Below, in pieces: positions 2,680 to 8,921 of a stretch of 10,832 nucleotides of DNA. This DNA is from Candidatus Aenigmatarchaeota archaeon (lineage in GTDB: Archaea; Aenigmatarchaeota; Aenigmatarchaeia; PWEA01; B50-G16), in the NCBI GenBank assembly GCA_003663345.1, contig QMZU01000012.1:1-10832 (forward strand), read 5' to 3'. The notes under the pieces are model-generated. The model was not told where the DNA came from, made no database searches, and was given only the letters and a program-made list of their open reading frames with translations. The first letter of the stretch is position 1, and every line of letters starts with the position of its first letter. A program made the position numbers and the translations under genes.

Positions 2680-3096
2680 TCACCTTCCCTTCACAAGCTT
2701 CATTATTTTACCTGATCTGAAAAGGAAACCAAAGAATAATCCTATCAATGCACCTCCAACAATATCTCCCGCATAATGGACTCCCAGGTAGAGTCTGCTC
2801 AGACCCACAAGAAGAGCATATGTCATAGTCCAGATCCTTCTTTCCCGGAAGAAGCTTGGAATCACAAAAGCAAGGGCTGCATGGGCACTGGGAAAGGATG
2901 GTGTTGTTGTTCTTATCAATCCTCCATCAGGTCTTGGTATGTTGAAGATGTATTTGAGAAAAACTGCTGTGGAGATGCTCAAAAGAACCGCAGAACCGTA
3001 GAGAACCGCCCTTTTCTTCTGGTTTTTGTGAAGAAGATAAACCATTGGTAATGGTGCTATCAGATAAGGTGTTATATTGATAATCTCGTTTATCAT
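2680..3096 (-). CDS. PAP2-family membrane phosphatase
   Basis: A 138-residue integral membrane protein carrying the three acid-phosphatase motifs of the PAP2 superfamily: KYIFNIPRP (K-x6-R-P, about residues 48-56), SFPSAHA (the PSGH motif with Ala for Gly, about 67-73) and SRLYLGVHYAGD (S-R-x5-H-x3-D, about 99-110). Lys, Arg, both His and the final Asp are all present, so it is probably active. Relatives remove phosphate from lipid phosphates or isoprenoid (undecaprenyl- or dolichyl-type) pyrophosphates at the membrane. It is shorter than many family members, keeping roughly four or five helices. Its ATG follows the polB stop with no gap (TAGATG), so it is the last gene of the orc1 operon. 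Its substrate is unknown, and a role in replication is not implied by the sequence. Confidence 0.85.
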   Translation of the reverse strand: MINEIINITPYLIAPLPMVYLLHKNQKKRAVLYGSAVLLSISTAVFLKYIFNIPRPDGGLIRTTTPSFPSAHAALAFVIPSFFRERRIWTMTYALLVGLSRLYLGVHYAGDIVGGALIGLFFGFLFRSGKIMKLVKGR

Positions 3097-5778
3097 CTAA
3101 ATCTCCACGTATTTTCCTATGAAACCCTGACCTGAGGCGTATATCTCCCCTCCACACTCACATCTTCCTGTCAGGGTTACCCTCCTGAAATCCCTATTGC
3201 ACTCACTACAGATGAATCCTGTTGGATTCTTCACCACAACCTCTCTCGGACTCATCTCTATACTGAGGTCATGGTTCCTTTCAGGTCTCCGGTTTCCCAT
3301 TATGTCGCTCAGACTAGTCTGTCTGCCCTTTCCAAGCAGCTCATCCCTGCTCACACCAAGAACCGCAAAAATCCTCTCTATTGGAGGGAGAAGCTGATTG
3401 TTTATGTAGTAATCCGTATCCGTCTTCAGGTTCTTCTCTTTGACGTATTCTATGGTTTCGGCCCTCTTGGAGAGCATCTGATTTCCCTCAACTATGACAA
3501 AAGAAATCCTGTCACCTCTTGTTGGTGGGTTGGAGGGGTCACGCATTCTCATCTTCTTGGCCGCCTCTATATGCGGAAGCACGCCATCATAACTCTCAAG
3601 ACTCTTTGTTATGCTTTTGGTAACGGATAATTCCTTCAGAGGGACCTCACGTTTTCTTATCTGCTCTATCTTCTCCTGAACAAATGATATTGCACGGTTC
3701 ACATCCCCCTCCTTTATTATCATATCTATGACCGCATTCATGGTATTGGTGACCAGATCACACCAGTCCCGCCTGACGGTTTCTATGCCCTTCATCTCTA
3801 TCTTATCACTCCACTCACCGTTATGCTTCTCAAATGCCCAGCCAGCATATCTCTTCTTCGCGAGTATCAGGAAGCTTCTGAATATCTTTTCGAACTCGAG
3901 TTCAAGTACACCCGGCAGTGAATCCGTTATCTCTTTCGCTATTCTGGTGCCTACCTCATAAACCTCATCCAGATTCTTGCTCGGATACTTGACCATTACA
4001 GAATCCGTGTCGCCGTATATTATTTCAAGTCCGTACTCGTTTCTTATCTTGTCAGCGGTTTTCTGGATAAGGTGTCTTCCATAGGATGTTATGGCATTTG
4101 CCACGTGAATGTTGTAGGTTCTCGCCTTCATGTAACCACAGTATCCGTAGAAGGCGTTTGCCATTATCTTGAAGGCATATTGTTTGGCATCCAGTAATCT
4201 TCTCTTTTCCGGGTCTTTCTCTTGATACATTCTTTTCTTGACAGTTGACCTTCCATCTATGAGACCTGAGAGAATTCTGGGTATTATTCCCTCTCTTACG
4301 GAGGATTTGACGAACCTCGCGCCTGCCGGGCTTTCATTGTACTCCACATCCAAGTCTCTCGTGAGCAAGGTGGTTGGACAGATATTGAAGGTTCTTATTA
4401 TGCTCGGATACAGGGACTTGAAATCCATGACCATCACACATCCATCAGCATACAGACCCGGATTGGGCTCAAGAACAAGACCACCCTTTATCCCTTCTTT
4501 TTCCCTTTCTTTGCTTCTCTTTATTATCTCCTCCCTGCCGGGTTTGAGCGGTAGCACGAATCCCTTTTTGTTGAACTCTGAAAGGAGAAGGTTCTCAATC
4601 CTTATTGACTCCCCACCATCCAGTACATCCTGAAGAAGCACACCAGAGACCCTGCAGAGCGCTATGTATTTGTCGAGTGGTTTCTTTTCGGTGATGAGTT
4701 TCAGCGCAAGTATGGAATCCTTTCTGGCATAACTTATGAGTCGATGTATCTCGTTTCTGTCTTCCCAGAGACCATTTATCTCCTTGTAACTCACATCCTC
4801 CTTCTCCTCACCGAGGAGGTCCTTTGCAACGGTGTTGAGTGTGTAGTTTTTGAAGGAATACTCTTTTTTAACTATCCGGTACGAATCAACAATTACTCTT
4901 CCCGTTATGTTTGTCTTCGTTTGTGGACCGAACGTCTGGCAGAAGACCGTCTTATCAACAACCCTTCCTAAGTCCCTTTTGAGGTTCAGGTGCTGCATTC
5001 TCTGAATGATATAGGGCATGTCGAAGTTGTTTATGTTGTATCCTGTGATTATGTCAGGATCATAACTCTCTATAATATCCTTCAGTTTTTCCAACATCTC
5101 CTCCTCGCTGGTACAGCTTATAACATCACCCGGAACAGATTTCGCCACAAGTACATCATTTTCTCTTCCCCGGAAGGGTTCAGAATAAGCAAGAGCAATC
5201 ATTATTATCGGGTCCTTGTCTGCTGAGGGTATCCTCTCTTGAGGGGTCTTCACTTCGATATCAAGCGCGAGAATCCTGAGTGGCACGTTCTCATCATTTT
5301 CTATGGGTGTTATGCTCCTTGCCTCAATGGTTGCACACCTTATGGTATCCGTTCTCAGGGGGTTCCCTTCAACCTCTATCCAACCCATTCCTGTTATGGA
5401 CCTATCAACCATGTACCTGTACTTGAAGAGTATATCCGCCTCGTATATATCATCAACCTTATCCTTTATGTAGTCCCTTATCTCCGGGACCTTTGAAGGA
5501 GTTCTTGTGGTCACCTTGAGGAGTTCAATCTTGTCGGAATATCCTATTGGTAGGTACCTCTCCACAATTTCGGTTTTTTCTATCTCCCCACCGAACCTTG
5601 AGCGAAGCTCCTCTTCAATTCTCTTCGGATTTGTGGTCTTTATGTAGAAGTAGGGTAGAAGGTCGGTTGCGCAGACGCAGTATGTTTTTCCATTCCTATC
5701 CTTTCCGAATATTCTGACTATTGGTCGGTTGTTGAGCATATCATAGTCAACATCCAAAACCTGAATCTGAACCTTCAT
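3097..5778 (-). CDS. polB: Family B DNA polymerase with a C-terminal zinc-finger-like extension
   Basis: A replicative-type DNA polymerase of 893 residues. The 3'-5' exonuclease motifs are ALDIE (Asp about 173, Glu 175), YNINNFDMP (about 247-255) and YARKD (about 350-354). The polymerase motifs are DFKSLYPSII (motif A, about 452-461), KIMANAFYGY (motif B, about 537-546, Ala where many archaeal PolB have Ser), YGDTDS (motif C, about 588-593) and KKRY (about 641-644). All catalytic Asp residues are present and there is no intein. RQTSLSDIM (about 819-827) lies where many archaeal PolB carry a C-terminal PCNA-binding box, but lacks its aromatic pair. After it come about 65 further residues with cysteines at about 857, 860, 873 and 875 (C-x2-C-x12-C-x-C). 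The start was moved from 5862 to 5778: the first 28 codons of the longer frame overlap the upstream gene, and the protein from 5778 begins like other PolB. Confidence 0.95.
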   Translation of the reverse strand: MKVQIQVLDVDYDMLNNRPIVRIFGKDRNGKTYCVCATDLLPYFYIKTTNPKRIEEELRSRFGGEIEKTEIVERYLPIGYSDKIELLKVTTRTPSKVPEIRDYIKDKVDDIYEADILFKYRYMVDRSITGMGWIEVEGNPLRTDTIRCATIEARSITPIENDENVPLRILALDIEVKTPQERIPSADKDPIIMIALAYSEPFRGRENDVLVAKSVPGDVISCTSEEEMLEKLKDIIESYDPDIITGYNINNFDMPYIIQRMQHLNLKRDLGRVVDKTVFCQTFGPQTKTNITGRVIVDSYRIVKKEYSFKNYTLNTVAKDLLGEEKEDVSYKEINGLWEDRNEIHRLISYARKDSILALKLITEKKPLDKYIALCRVSGVLLQDVLDGGESIRIENLLLSEFNKKGFVLPLKPGREEIIKRSKEREKEGIKGGLVLEPNPGLYADGCVMVMDFKSLYPSIIRTFNICPTTLLTRDLDVEYNESPAGARFVKSSVREGIIPRILSGLIDGRSTVKKRMYQEKDPEKRRLLDAKQYAFKIMANAFYGYCGYMKARTYNIHVANAITSYGRHLIQKTADKIRNEYGLEIIYGDTDSVMVKYPSKNLDEVYEVGTRIAKEITDSLPGVLELEFEKIFRSFLILAKKRYAGWAFEKHNGEWSDKIEMKGIETVRRDWCDLVTNTMNAVIDMIIKEGDVNRAISFVQEKIEQIRKREVPLKELSVTKSITKSLESYDGVLPHIEAAKKMRMRDPSNPPTRGDRISFVIVEGNQMLSKRAETIEYVKEKNLKTDTDYYINNQLLPPIERIFAVLGVSRDELLGKGRQTSLSDIMGNRRPERNHDLSIEMSPREVVVKNPTGFICSECNRDFRRVTLTGRCECGGEIYASGQGFIGKYVEI

Positions 5779-5815
5779 GGCAACCACTTTATTTCTCTCC
5801 TGGGAAAGATAAATA

Positions 5816-6730
5816 TTATTGTACCACTTCTCTGTTCCTGAGGTTAAGGAGAACCGACCCATCAGAGCCTGTGCTTACAAGTGTCACAGTCTTGTAGTTG
5901 AGTGTGAAGGTGCTACCCATCGGGGCATATATCACATCTGGTATCTCCTTTAAAAGGTATGGATCAAATTTTGATATAATTTTTCCTGTGGGGTTCAGGT
6001 GTCTTCTTCTAACGAGTTCCACCAGCGCTCTTTGTGGGTCACCGAATTTTTTGATGTATCCACTGTAATCTGAAGGGGCCAGAAATATCCTTACATTTTC
6101 CATCTCCACCGTAACCGGCTCGTTCACGTGAATTACCTTCACGTCATTTCTTTCAAGGTCTGGAGTTGTTGTGAAGATTACGTCAACATTTTTCTTAGGG
6201 ACCTCTCCTGATGTGAATAAACATAATCTGTCATTCTCGGTAAGTACCACCTCTCTGCCGAGCGGGATATCTGGGTGGATGATTCTCTTCACAATGATGT
6301 TTCCTCTATCCGTTACACCCTCAACACCAATAACCTCATCCTCGATGAGTGTGGAATCTGTTATTATTCTGGTTGAGCCCGTGGTATCTTCGATTACAGC
6401 GCCATTTTCTTCCAAATCCCTGACCATACCTATTACACACACTTCGGAGTTGGGTGGTAATTTATTGAGAGAGACCATCCTCTTCATATCAAGTTTCTCT
6501 TTAATGAGGGAGGAAAGATATTTGAACCTCTCTCTGTAAACATCCACAAAATCCTCAATTTTTTTTATTTTATCTCCATCTTCTCTAATGACCCTGATTT
6601 TAGGGAGGATTTTGGTTATCAGAAACTCATCACCTTCAAGGAGCTTCTCGATATCCTCTTCATTTATTCGACTGTACACTTCTGGTGATATTAACTTTCC
6701 CTTTTCAAGGAGCTTCTCCACGATGTTCAT
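5816..6730 (-). CDS. PolD small-subunit (DP1)-like B-subunit, phosphoesterase inactivated
   Basis: A 304-residue protein related to DP1, the Mre11-like exonuclease subunit of archaeal PolD and ancestor-type of eukaryotic B-subunits. An N-terminal helical part (about 1-85) precedes an OB-fold region (about 90-155: CVIGMVRDLEENGAVIEDTT, later DEVIGVEG and HPDIPL), all in DP1 order. Near the C-terminus RRRHLNPTGK (about 241-250) matches the DP1 R-R-H-L-x-P element, and IPDVIYAPMGSTFT (about 263-276) aligns with DP1's V-P-D-I-x-H-T-G-H-V-H. The metal ligands are gone: the S-D-I-H-x-G site reads FTSGEV, the GD and GNHD motifs are missing with much of the mid-domain, the H-G-x-S site reads LAPSDY, and GHVH reads GSTF. 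Known DP1 proteins are much longer. The ATG at 6730 follows the orc1 stop by 4 bp and has a GAGTGAT ribosome site; polB follows 37 bp later. Binding to PolB is inferred. Confidence 0.8.
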   Translation of the reverse strand: MNIVEKLLEKGKLISPEVYSRINEEDIEKLLEGDEFLITKILPKIRVIREDGDKIKKIEDFVDVYRERFKYLSSLIKEKLDMKRMVSLNKLPPNSEVCVIGMVRDLEENGAVIEDTTGSTRIITDSTLIEDEVIGVEGVTDRGNIIVKRIIHPDIPLGREVVLTENDRLCLFTSGEVPKKNVDVIFTTTPDLERNDVKVIHVNEPVTVEMENVRIFLAPSDYSGYIKKFGDPQRALVELVRRRHLNPTGKIISKFDPYLLKEIPDVIYAPMGSTFTLNYKTVTLVSTGSDGSVLLNLRNREVVQ

Positions 6731-6734
6731 TCTA

Positions 6735-7943
6735 TCACTCAAAGTAGAACTCGGATACAAGTGTGTTCTTTATCTTCTCCAGGATCGGTTCGGATACTCC
6801 CAATGTTATGGTTCTTGTTCTTCCGTAGCGCCCCTTACTTATGACCCTTGCATTTATTATACCGAGAAGGTCAAGTTCTGCAATCAGGTCTGATACTCTT
6901 CTCTGTGTGAGCGGCGCAAGTCCGGAGTTTCTACAGACCTTCTCATAAACACTGAATATGTCTCCGGTCTGCACCTCATTGCCACCATTTTCTTTGAGTT
7001 TCAGTATTGACCAGAGAACAGCCTGGCTCTGTCTTGGTTGGGTCCTCACAACCTCAAGTATCCTGTCCATATCTATCTTCGATTCGGCCATATCAACATG
7101 CCTCTCCTCAACCCTTTTGGAGCCTTCCCTTTCACACATCTCACCAGCCACTCTCAATAAGTCCAAAGCGCGCCTGGCATCACCATGCTCCTGTGCTGCA
7201 AGGGCTGCACACTTCTCTATAACCCCTTCTGCTATCACACCGGGTTTGAAGGCTTTCTCTGCCCTGGATTTGAGGATGTCCTGTAGTTGGAGCGCGTTGT
7301 ATGGAGAGAAGAGCATCTCCTCCTCGGAGAGGGAGCTCCTGACCCTTGGGTCGAGGTTCTCTTTGAAAGACAGATTATTTGATATACCGATTATCGATAT
7401 CTTGGAGTTTTCAAGGTCTTCGTTCATCCTGGTCAAGTTGTAGAGGAAGTTGTCACCGGTCTTCTCAACCATTATATCTATCTCATCCAGTATGAGTATC
7501 ACCATCCTTTTCTTATCCTCAACAGCCTCGAAGAATATCTCATAGACCTGGTCTGTGGGGAGGCCGGTTGGTGGGACATCCCTACCAAGCTCCCGGGCCA
7601 GTTTGGCAAGGAGTCTGTACTCGGTATCAGCGACCTTCCTCATCTTACAGTTCAAGTAAATTATCCTGACCTCATGACCGTTGTTCATCGCAACCTCTTC
7701 GAGTTTTGAGCAGACGTATTGGGTCACGGCTGTTTTCCCTGTTCCTGTCTTACCATACACAAAAACATTTGAGGGTTTCTCACCCCTCAGAGAAGGTGCA
7801 AGTATCGAACCAAGGGTTTTTATCTCTTTTTCACGGTGTGGAAGGTTTTCCGGTCTGTATTTTGTTAGGAGAAGTTCTTTATTTTGAAAGATATCATCTT
7901 TCTGAATATAATTCTTGAAGATATTATCCAACGAGAGCTGCAT
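6735..7943 (-). CDS. orc1: Orc1/Cdc6 replication initiator
   Basis: A 402-residue archaeal origin-binding AAA+ ATPase, close to the usual family length. The Walker A loop is GKTGTGKT (about 64-71), Walker B is ILILDEID (about 149-156), sensor 1 is around ISNNL (about 187-191), the arginine-finger region is DPRVRSSL (about 198-205) and sensor 2 is GDARRALDLLR (about 254-264). A winged-helix DNA-binding domain fills about 290-400. Orc1 binds ORB elements and loads the MCM helicase. The frame stays open to a Met at 7970, but the ATG at 7943 has a GGGGGTGG ribosome site 6 bases upstream and begins MQLSLDNIF as expected, so I chose it. It is the first gene of a minus-strand operon with the DP1-like protein, polB and PAP2, and lies next to the origin-like region. 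Confidence 0.96.
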   Translation of the reverse strand: MQLSLDNIFKNYIQKDDIFQNKELLLTKYRPENLPHREKEIKTLGSILAPSLRGEKPSNVFVYGKTGTGKTAVTQYVCSKLEEVAMNNGHEVRIIYLNCKMRKVADTEYRLLAKLARELGRDVPPTGLPTDQVYEIFFEAVEDKKRMVILILDEIDIMVEKTGDNFLYNLTRMNEDLENSKISIIGISNNLSFKENLDPRVRSSLSEEEMLFSPYNALQLQDILKSRAEKAFKPGVIAEGVIEKCAALAAQEHGDARRALDLLRVAGEMCEREGSKRVEERHVDMAESKIDMDRILEVVRTQPRQSQAVLWSILKLKENGGNEVQTGDIFSVYEKVCRNSGLAPLTQRRVSDLIAELDLLGIINARVISKGRYGRTRTITLGVSEPILEKIKNTLVSEFYFE

Positions 7944-7949
7944 ATGAAA

Positions 7950-7957
7950 CCACCCCC
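7950..7957 (-). promoter_or_regulatory. Ribosome-binding site that fixes the orc1 start
   Basis: On the minus strand GGGGGTGG lies 6 bases before the ATG at 7943. It favours this start over the Met codon at 7970, which has no comparable site and sits inside the promoter. Confidence 0.6.
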
Positions 7958-7961
7958 AAAA

Positions 7962-7980
7962 TACTATCATTTCTTATAGA
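7962..7980 (-). other. Degenerate ORB-like box F
   Basis: On the minus strand this reads TCTATAAGAAATGATAGTA. The part TATAAGAAATGA is the same as box C except for the first base, but the G-string is lost. It lies within the orc1 promoter, so it may be a worn ORB or a site for autoregulation by Orc1. It could also be chance. Confidence 0.3.
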
Positions 7981-7984
7981 ACTG

Positions 7985-7996
7985 TTATTATAAATA
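7985..7996 (-). promoter_or_regulatory. TATA box for the orc1 operon
   Basis: On the minus strand this reads TATTTATAATAA, centred about 48 bp upstream of the orc1 ATG. With a start about 26 bp downstream, the mRNA would have a leader of about 22 bases, enough to include the GGGGGTGG ribosome site. Confidence 0.5.
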
Positions 7997-8000
7997 GATA

Positions 8001-8025
8001 TCTGCACGTGAAATGAAGGGGTATT
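8001..8025 (+). other. ORB-like origin recognition box A
   Basis: The core CACGTGAAATGAAGGGGT shares GAAATGAAGGGGT with box E and has the ORB layout of a dyad part followed by a G-string. The first part (CTGCACGTG) is weaker than the TCCAnnGGAAA of boxes B and D. It points towards box B, 22 bp away. Confidence 0.6.
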
Positions 8026-8046
8026 CATATTTACATGAATGAATAT

Positions 8047-8074
8047 ACACACCCCTTTATTTCCTATGGAAAAT
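8047..8074 (-). other. ORB-like origin recognition box B
   Basis: On the minus strand the core reads TCCATAGGAAATAAAGGGGT, the best match in the window to the archaeal ORB pattern. It borders the AT-rich stretch on its left, with the G-string facing away from it. Confidence 0.7.
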
Positions 8075-8149
8075 GTTAATAATAAAATAATTCTATATAA
8101 AAATATAACAATGTTATATATTTGGATTGGTTTTCTTCATCAAAAACAA
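8072..8149. other. Probable DNA unwinding element
   Basis: An AT-rich stretch between ORB-like boxes B and C. From 8071 to 8123 only 4 of 53 bases are G or C. Its place between two outward-facing ORB-like boxes is the layout expected of the site where an archaeal origin first melts. It contains palindrome copy 2 (8104-8118), so part of the AT-richness may serve a regulator instead. Confidence 0.55.
8104..8118. promoter_or_regulatory. Palindromic operator-like site, copy 2 (TATAACA-N-TGTTATA)
   Basis: TATAACAATGTTATA, a perfect 7+1+7 inverted repeat that extends to 8+1+8 with the flanking A and T. It lies in the AT-rich core of the origin, about 100 bp upstream of the HTH gene and about 108 bp upstream of the orc1 TATA box. 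It is identical to copies 1 and 3 apart from the central base. Confidence 0.6.
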
Positions 8150-8173
8150 TTTCCATAAGAAATGAAGGTCTCT
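8149..8173 (+). other. ORB-like origin recognition box C
   Basis: TTTCCATAAGAAATGAAGG fits the first part of the ORB pattern, but the G-string is cut to GG followed by TCTCT. It borders the AT-rich stretch on its right and, like box B, faces away from it. Confidence 0.5.
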
Positions 8174-8187
8174 ATGTGGTTTCGACA

Positions 8188-8197
8188 TTTATAAATA
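8188..8197 (+). promoter_or_regulatory. TATA box for the HTH regulator gene (leaderless)
   Basis: TTTATAAATA is centred about 27 bp upstream of the ATG at 8220, which has no ribosome-binding site. A leaderless transcript starting at the ATG is likely. Confidence 0.6.
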
Positions 8198-8219
8198 TTA
8201 AATTCGTTGTTTAACTATT

Positions 8220-8921
8220 ATGGATTTGAAGAGGGAGTTGATACTCAAGAGAATATGTGGAGAGATTGTCCTTTCAAATGACCCTGGTAAAACCATTCGA
8301 AAATGGAGAAATATCTTCAATATACCTCAAAGAAAACTAGCTGATGAGATGGGAGTCACATCCTCTGTGATATCCGACTATGAGAGTGGTAGGAGGAAGA
8401 ATCCTGGAATAAAGATAATAAATAATATAGTTGAGGCGATGTTGAGGATAGATGAGAAGAGGGGTGGAGAGATTATAAAAGAGTTTCTAAACCTACCATC
8501 AGATCCGGTTCTCTCAGAAGCGATCATGGATATAAAGGAGATGGGTAAAGGTATCAGTATAAGGGATTTCTGTAAATTGATAGGTGCTGAGATAGTTGTA
8601 GGAAAGGATATGTCTGATAAGAACATATACGGTTACACTGTCATAGATTCGATTAAAGCCATAGTCGAACTCTCACCACGAGAACTTGTGAAGCTTTATG
8701 GTATAACAACCGAACGCGCACTCATATTCACCAAAACAACAACCGGTAGAAGCCCGATGGTTGCCATAAAAGTCACAAGCCTCAAACCCGGTCTGGTTGT
8801 CTTCCATGGACCCAATAAGATAGATGACCTCGCTCAGAGGATAGGCGCAGCAGAGCATATACCTCTCGCGATATGTAGACTCGAAGTTAATGAGATGTTG
8901 AAGAGATTGAGGGAGATTTGA
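8220..8921 (+). CDS. HTH (XRE-type) transcriptional regulator, COG1709-like
   Basis: A 233-residue protein. Residues about 25-75 form a Cro/C1-type helix-turn-helix: TIRKWRNIFNIPQRKLADEM, then GVTSSVISDYESGRRKNPG, with Q37 starting helix 2 and S48-S52 on the recognition helix. Residues about 105-233 form an alpha/beta domain, including SPMVAIKVTSLKPGLVVFHG, that I associate with archaeal regulators of the COG1709 type and that may sense a ligand. The targets of this family are not known to me. It is read away from the origin, with its own TATA box, and its stop overlaps the start of the next small gene by one base (TGATG), so the two form a unit. It is one candidate binder of the TATAACA-N-TGTTATA palindromes. 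Confidence 0.85.
   Translation: MDLKRELILKRICGEIVLSNDPGKTIRKWRNIFNIPQRKLADEMGVTSSVISDYESGRRKNPGIKIINNIVEAMLRIDEKRGGEIIKEFLNLPSDPVLSEAIMDIKEMGKGISIRDFCKLIGAEIVVGKDMSDKNIYGYTVIDSIKAIVELSPRELVKLYGITTERALIFTKTTTGRSPMVAIKVTSLKPGLVVFHGPNKIDDLAQRIGAAEHIPLAICRLEVNEMLKRLREI

Follow-up and report, generated by a model that had tools for sequence, protein, structure and literature searches.

The question raised by a 10,832-nucleotide stretch of archaeal DNA (contig QMZU01000012.1 of assembly GCA_003663345.1; hereafter, the window) is whether two adjacent genes, one for a DP1-like protein and one for a family B DNA polymerase (PolB), encode a replicase of eukaryotic architecture. Eukaryotic replicases are chimaeras, in that a PolB catalytic subunit holds a dead relative of archaeal DP1. 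The window belongs to a 951-kb, 74% complete genome of Candidatus Aenigmatarchaeota. On its minus strand an orc1/cdc6 initiator gene, the DP1-like gene, the PolB gene and an open reading frame (ORF) for a PAP2-like protein follow one another with gaps of 4, 37 and 0 bases, the stop end of orc1/cdc6 (6735) lying 4 nt ahead of the DP1-like start codon. An original prediction, made from the letters alone, had paired PolB with a catalytically dead DP1-type B-subunit 37 bp away and had noticed a four-cysteine module at the end of PolB; both the gap and the module were borne out. The pair is very probably a replicative-type polymerase, in which a PolB of group B6 would perform synthesis and proofreading while held to a predicted non-catalytic B-subunit derived from DP1.

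The relation of the window protein to DP1 is solid. A Pfam scan of the DP1-like protein gave nothing significant, and the NCBIfam profile of the PolD small subunit (NF003118) matched it with an E-value of 2.5e-23, at 82.8 bits against a curated cut-off of 445. In the PDB, phmmer retrieved Pyrococcus abyssi DP1 at 7.4e-5, and a profile of 40 sequences reached archaeal DP1 chains (7.6e-34) as well as subunit 2 of human Pol epsilon (2.8e-4). An AlphaFold2 model, built from 20 of the 23 available sequences (the window protein and 22 others, of which L182, L184 and L197 were left out), has a mean pLDDT of 89. Its top Foldseek match is archaeal DP1 (1.5e-17), and chain B of the Pol delta holoenzyme (1.6e-14), the Pol epsilon B-subunit (7.8e-11) and a Pol alpha B-subunit entry (8.9e-10) are also found. 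All of the first 46 matches are either archaeal DP1 or eukaryotic chains, the latter from entries for Pol delta, epsilon, zeta and alpha and for replisomes; the replisome chains are not named and are presumably B-subunits. As modelled, the protein has the OB fold and inactive phosphoesterase fold of eukaryotic B-subunits, so the relation originally proposed was recovered by the NF003118 profile, by the PDB profile and by Foldseek. A search of a collection of genome contigs with the DP1-like protein alone gave 148 pattern matches and no relative, and a search of viral contigs with an alignment of DP1-like proteins from the same order gave 36 pattern matches and no relative. Separately, where the DP1 model covers the phosphoesterase, its closest match in the genome of the window is a protein of contig 1 (L272:800-1744) with a winged helix and a calcineurin-like phosphoesterase domain whose motifs are intact.

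The active site of the window protein is wholly lost. When aligned to eight intact DP1s from the same phylum, which carry SDLH, GD, PGNHD, YHGYS and SGHLHT, it shows FTSGEVPK, TT, a gap, APSDY and APMGS in the corresponding columns. None of the eight ligand or catalytic residues is kept and the five-motif metallophosphoesterase site is not intact, in agreement with the initial reading of the metal sites as FTSGE, absent, LAPSD and GSTF. An assembly error or frameshift masking an intact DP1 was ruled out, because relatives show the same dead state; the frames are open, and no intact DP1 was found in the 74% complete genome.

The PolB gene encodes a polymerase with intact motifs. Pfam detects DNA_pol_B (9e-117) and exo1 (1.8e-43) domains, and among the 99 B6 sequences of at least 840 aa from the phylum the six exonuclease residues checked (ExoI-III) are conserved in all 99, as are six of the seven polymerase residues, the seventh being present in 97. 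Within the PDB, human Pol delta ranks narrowly over archaeal PolB both by sequence (7.7e-117 vs 2.7e-112) and by fold (3.0e-69 vs 1.2e-64), a nearness that is a leaning of search scores and not a phylogeny. Twenty-nine B6 polymerases, chosen from the 105 loci with PolB outside a family designated f13, form one clade (support 98) separate from archaeal PolB3. This tree, like the others reported here, comes from a quick search with SH-aLRT support only. Of the 29 nearest loci in a named collection, 27 carry the title Candidatus Aenigmatarchaeota. Judged by sequence, the window PolB probably belongs with B6-aenigma1, the B-family polymerases of Aenigmarchaeota that lie outside PolB3. Its own genome contains two PolB matches as counted by search and one as counted by Pfam. 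Ahead of the C-terminus lies a segment, GRQTSLSDI, which we take to be a PIP box; its Q820 is found in 97 of the 99 B6 sequences. Inteins with LAGLIDADG-type domains split the B6 PolB genes of two other loci (L087 and L143), and long PolB frames at L097, L122, L147 and L148 were judged to hold inteins from frame length alone.

What would tie this polymerase to the DP1-like protein is its tail. The last 40 residues hold C857, C860, C873 and C875, and all four cysteines recur in 97 of the 99 B6 sequences, the other two being gapped there; the zinc tail is thus kept in all 97 that reach this region. A hidden Markov model (HMM) of the B6 tail was applied to 10,867 ORFs from the fetched loci and recovered DP2s besides the B6 tails themselves; no other ORF scored better than E 0.007. 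The model matched all nine fetched f13 DP2s (3.8e-12 to 2.6e-10) and two DP2s from other DPANN archaea, the overall DP2 range being 1.4e-13 to 2.6e-10. Against the PDB, the tail profile first found DP2 chains at residues 1120-1158, the Zn-III module (5.5e-11), followed by an unrelated zinc-finger protein at 1.4e-4. A whole DP2 used as query found matches in 42 of the 145 genomes; ten of these hold real DP2s and 32 show matches confined to Zn-III, around DP2 residues 1025-1070. When positions were compared by eye, 30 of the 32 fell at the C-terminus of a B6 PolB, and the other two were short frames (about 150 aa) in genomes where the contig ends within PolB. From sequence comparison, the PolB tail is specifically homologous to the Zn-III of DP2, which serves in PolD as the docking piece for DP1, and the window PolB carries, as B6-aenigma1 polymerases do, a C-terminal domain with a single metal-binding motif most like that of DP2. 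In PolD, as described in PMC6355029, Zn-III with its RR loop occupies a groove of DP1 that is flanked by the OB and phosphoesterase domains, and a peptide of 20 residues spanning Zn-III has nanomolar affinity for DP1. Both docking arginines are present in the window tail, which may dock in the corresponding groove of the DP1-like protein.

The distribution of these proteins in the phylum points in the same direction. Among its 145 genomes, a PolB match was found in 141 and a DP1-like match in 124 (116 of the 134 outside f13), whereas the DP2 N-domain (PF03833) occurs in ten, all from f13, of which 11 genomes were sampled. Of 14 control genomes, three were positive in the same search, all three of them archaea. 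Only one of the 39 genomes that are at least 90% complete has DP2. The f13 DP1s keep all eight active-site residues in the eight sequences fetched, and a PolB is present in 10 of the 11 f13 genomes, matching the window PolB weakly and placed with PolB3 in the four cases treed. The genome carrying the window, 74% complete, yielded neither an intact DP1 nor a DP2; for the latter PF03833 and a whole DP2 (at E 1e-3) were used, and a DP2 hidden elsewhere in this genome was thereby sought and not found. In both respects, the lost phosphoesterase site and the DP2 that was not detected, the window agrees with the inactivated DP1s described from Aenigmarchaeota. As an observation apart, in one f13 genome (G054) an intein interrupts the DP1, intact in other respects, at motif II of the active site (L158:3129-5702), and the DP2 and PolB frames of this genome are oversized.

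The order of the genes suggests how PolB came to stand beside DP1. Of the 117 loci outside f13, 90 have orc within 300 bp upstream of the DP1-like gene, 74 have PolB within 750 bp downstream and on the same strand, and 47 combine the two arrangements; in 28 PolB lies on the opposite strand, and in 12 it falls beyond the fetched stretch. One genome (G138, with a 1.05 Mb contig) has two dead-DP1 loci, L063 and L064, each directly behind an orc gene. In the phylum of a woesearchaeote (DPANN), DP1 was matched in 58 of 60 sampled genomes, and 28 of the 30 best-scoring loci from these 58 show a tandem orc1-DP1-DP2. Since the order is orc1-DP1-DP2 there and orc1-dead DP1-PolB here, B6 PolB most simply stands in the ancestral DPANN slot of DP2. 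The constancy of orc, the most frequent neighbour even when PolB is on the other strand, could also mean that the main partner of the B-subunit is Orc1 at the origin, with the protein serving as a loading platform and PolB binding being secondary or absent; a link between Cdc6 and DP1 at oriC has been proposed from euryarchaeal gene order (PMC2643942). However, all 17 loci of families f9 and f11 have PolB next to the DP1-like gene and no orc match in the fetched stretch, and a DP2-derived tail on PolB would have no obvious other purpose, so that an Orc1 platform in place of a polymerase subunit is quite unlikely.

The loss of the DP1 site was neither sudden nor complete everywhere. Thirty-five chosen B6-associated DP1s form one clade (support 99) apart from f13 and from ten outside DP1s, and in a larger tree of 118 sequences of at least 260 aa, from which the intein-bearing L158 was left out and shorter fragments were dropped, all 111 B6-associated DP1s form a clade (support 100). 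These 111 sequences span from 7 to 0 of the eight residues. If never regained, motif I was lost 19 times on the tree, and at least 6 times when only well-supported branches are counted. A one-step loss of the whole site is ruled out, because the retention of residues is graded. Six or seven of the eight are still present in some members of f8, f16, f23 and f24 and in part of f11: two f16 proteins retain every metal ligand and have Met in place of the catalytic His, and one f24 protein has kept this His and lost the Asn. Such cases might suggest that the DP1-like protein retains metal-dependent phosphoesterase activity through other residues. This is very unlikely, as the window protein has none of the eight, 19 of 25 families never exceed two, no sequence outside f13 has both the N and the H of motif III, and H451 of P. 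abyssi DP1 is described as catalytically essential (PMC10721889).

A different objection sees the DP1-like gene as a leftover of PolD that is decaying and has no present role, its place beside PolB being historical. The total loss of the site in the window and its repeated loss elsewhere would fit such a leftover, and so would the faster divergence of the DP1-like protein, which exceeds that of PolB in every pair compared for both. However, dN/dS (NG86) ranges from 0.05 to 0.24 in the seven of eight dead-DP1 pairs for which it was computable, several of them saturated with synonymous distances above 1, which indicates purifying selection. In addition, a core shared with active DP1 (E114, D115, T117, P153, R243, P264 and Y279) is found in at least 95% of the 111 dead sequences, D115 in all of them. 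Together with a homologue in most genomes of the phylum and with the zinc tail in every B6 PolB that reaches it, these data make a functionless leftover highly improbable. The pattern of decay fits the loss of a redundant nuclease under a proofreading PolB, with the scaffold being kept.

Polymerases close to that of the window also occur in mobile elements. Eight of 15 IMG/VR loci have a PolB 37-40% identical to it (540-589 bits), and the PolB of plasmid pMETHO01 of Methanomethylovorans hollandica shows 36% identity (584 bits). The PolB3s of the phylum outside f13 reach 32-37% identity too (357-412 bits, 11 fetched), and for this reason it is the tree, and not identity, that separates B6-like enzymes from PolB3. 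In the tree, six viral sequences (from eight viral B6-like loci, L260 and L264 repeating L259 and L256) and the plasmid sequence are the sister group of the 29 B6 polymerases, with support of 99 for both groups together and 100 and 98 for each apart. These relatives share the polymerase core with the window enzyme but lack the zinc tail: they end at or shortly after the PIP-like segment, which in the window precedes the tail. Because the sisters stop before the position of the tail, this was probably added to an enzyme from a mobile element. A search for DP1 on the viral PolB contigs gave just one weak match to a calcineurin-like phosphoesterase (E 0.0064, in the look-alike stretches L259 and L260), and ten ORFs scanned from four PolB virus contigs included one tail gene and three helicases. 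Among the best 25 of 996 phage records there was no close PolB, identity being 22-26%.

Taken in order, a PolB of viral or plasmid type would have acquired a Zn-III module and, bearing it, would have ousted DP2 from an orc1-DP1-DP2 operon. The tail, through its Zn-III module and RR loop, would bind the DP1-like protein as Zn-III binds DP1 in PolD, in the groove that separates the OB domain from the phosphoesterase domain, and the nuclease of DP1, dispensable because PolB brought its own exonuclease, would have decayed repeatedly. The remaining B-subunit may act as a scaffold, perhaps tying what may be the main replicase to Orc1, RPA or a helicase.

Several observations weigh against this reading. 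With respect to docking, the arginine pair is present in just 56 of 97 tails (window counted), a basic second residue in 75, and family f17 lacks the pair in four of four cases; the homology of the tail is moreover limited to Zn-III, with no sign of the DP2 helical bundle. As regards the slot, the tandem orc1-DP1-DP2 was seen in only two of the ten archaeal genomes examined first, both DPANN by title, and in a Bathyarchaeota locus orc is on the opposite strand and DP2 about 5 kb off. The fetched stretches of f13, which still has PolD, show neither orc nor DP2 beside DP1, and hence the slot argument rests on another phylum. In f7, f12 and f15 PolB is not in tandem, being mostly convergent and 1.4 to 5 kb away where fetched; such arrangements would be later if B6 PolB occupies the slot of DP2. 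Finally, 18 of the 134 genomes outside f13 have no DP1-like match, and the absence of DP2 and PolB3 from the genome of the window alone is weak, because this genome is 74% complete.

The core idea has already been published, and the window pair is of the kind reported by Kazlauskas et al. (2020), who described Aenigmarchaeota B6 polymerases with a DP2-like zinc motif together with an inactivated DP1, and proposed the replacement of DP2 (PMC7544198). Their B6-aenigma1 with inactivated DP1 (Aenigma_GB_GCA_002789635-like) is from the same phylum and has a PolB with one DP2-like zinc motif, DP2 being absent in most members. The pairing of PolB with a dead DP1 through a C-terminal zinc module, as originally predicted, thus stands as the best reading of the sequences, the tail being homologous to DP2 Zn-III, although the idea is not new. 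An analogous replacement was proposed for eukaryotes by Raia et al. (2019; PMC6355029). The main text of PMC7544198 contains no mention of operon, synteny, neighbourhood, adjacent or gene order, and its sections on the Delta-like clade, on the zinc motif and of discussion do not treat the slot replacement, the graded and repeated decay or the zinc-less virus and plasmid sisters; among the open-licence matches listed there was no later paper on a B6 PolB with an inactive DP1. The takeover of the DP2 slot, a mobile sister group without the zinc module and a decay that is both graded and repeated sharpen a known story and make it testable; these, together with the distribution of DP2 and of its Zn-III module in the phylum, are what is added here.

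Compared with PolD, the DP1-DP2 enzyme, the pair shares the DP1 fold, the Zn-III docking module and, in some archaea, the orc1 neighbourhood (PMC6355029). However, PolB replaces the DP2 catalytic core, the nuclease site of DP1 is lost, and proofreading is predicted on PolB. The likeness to eukaryotic Pol alpha, delta and epsilon, also part of the original prediction, and to Pol zeta holds in the B-subunit fold recovered by Foldseek, the dead phosphoesterase and the zinc tail, with the PolB core narrowly closest to Pol delta. It does not extend to the number of zinc motifs, one of DP2 type here and two in the eukaryotic tail (PMC7544198), nor to the small size of the B-subunit (304 aa).

The coordinates of these features are given below. 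Lengths refer to the ATG at 6730 for the DP1-like protein, whose longest frame opens with a TTG at 6760, and to the ATG at 5778 for PolB, whose longest frame extends back to 5862. The start codon of the PAP2-like ORF abuts the PolB stop, and it is possible that this ORF is the last gene of the operon. An AT-rich gap lies upstream of orc1 (7971-8220; 27% GC over 7900-8199), and near it ATTTCTTATGGAA occurs three times with at most one mismatch (7969-7981 and 8059-8071 on the plus strand, 8151-8163 on the minus strand), a number of copies reached in none of 200 shuffles of the window; the gap with its repeats is a candidate replication origin. In addition, the window of this small archaeon encodes a TctA-family membrane protein (1240-2553; Pfam E 1.6e-48).

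Table. Features of the replication locus and its neighbour, in window coordinates
Feature	Position	Strand	Basis and remarks
orc1/cdc6 initiator gene	6735..7943	-	NCBIfam NF001625, E 5.4e-165; ATG at 7943 (402 aa) or 7970
DP1-like B-subunit, 304 aa, OB fold and degenerate phosphoesterase domain	5816..6730	-	NF003118, active-site ligand table, AlphaFold/Foldseek
Family B DNA polymerase (group B6 type), 893 aa	3097..5778	-	Pfam, motif counts, tree
PCNA-binding-like (PIP) segment GRQTSLSDI and neighbours, residues ~817-831	3286..3330	-	Upstream of the zinc module
C-terminal zinc module FICSECNRDFRRVTLTGRCECGG..., DP2 Zn-III homologue, proposed DP1 docking tail	3097..3216	-	
PAP2-like membrane phosphatase ORF	2680..3096	-	PAP2 identity by eye

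It seems rather likely that the Aenigmatarchaeota keep the steps of a eukaryotic-type replicase swap, namely the gain of a module, the takeover of a slot and the repeated loss of a nuclease with living intermediates, the ancestral PolD being preserved in f13. The phylum offers both end states, the intermediates, a candidate donor lineage and an apparently transferred docking piece, and proteins from living genomes therefore allow a test of the order in which tail graft, slot takeover and nuclease decay occurred. This bears on how a replicase can be swapped without killing the cell. The swap in these tiny archaea appears to resemble the path presumed to have led to the eukaryotic DNA polymerases and, if this is true, the phylum would serve as a natural experiment on how the architecture of Pol alpha, delta and epsilon arose.

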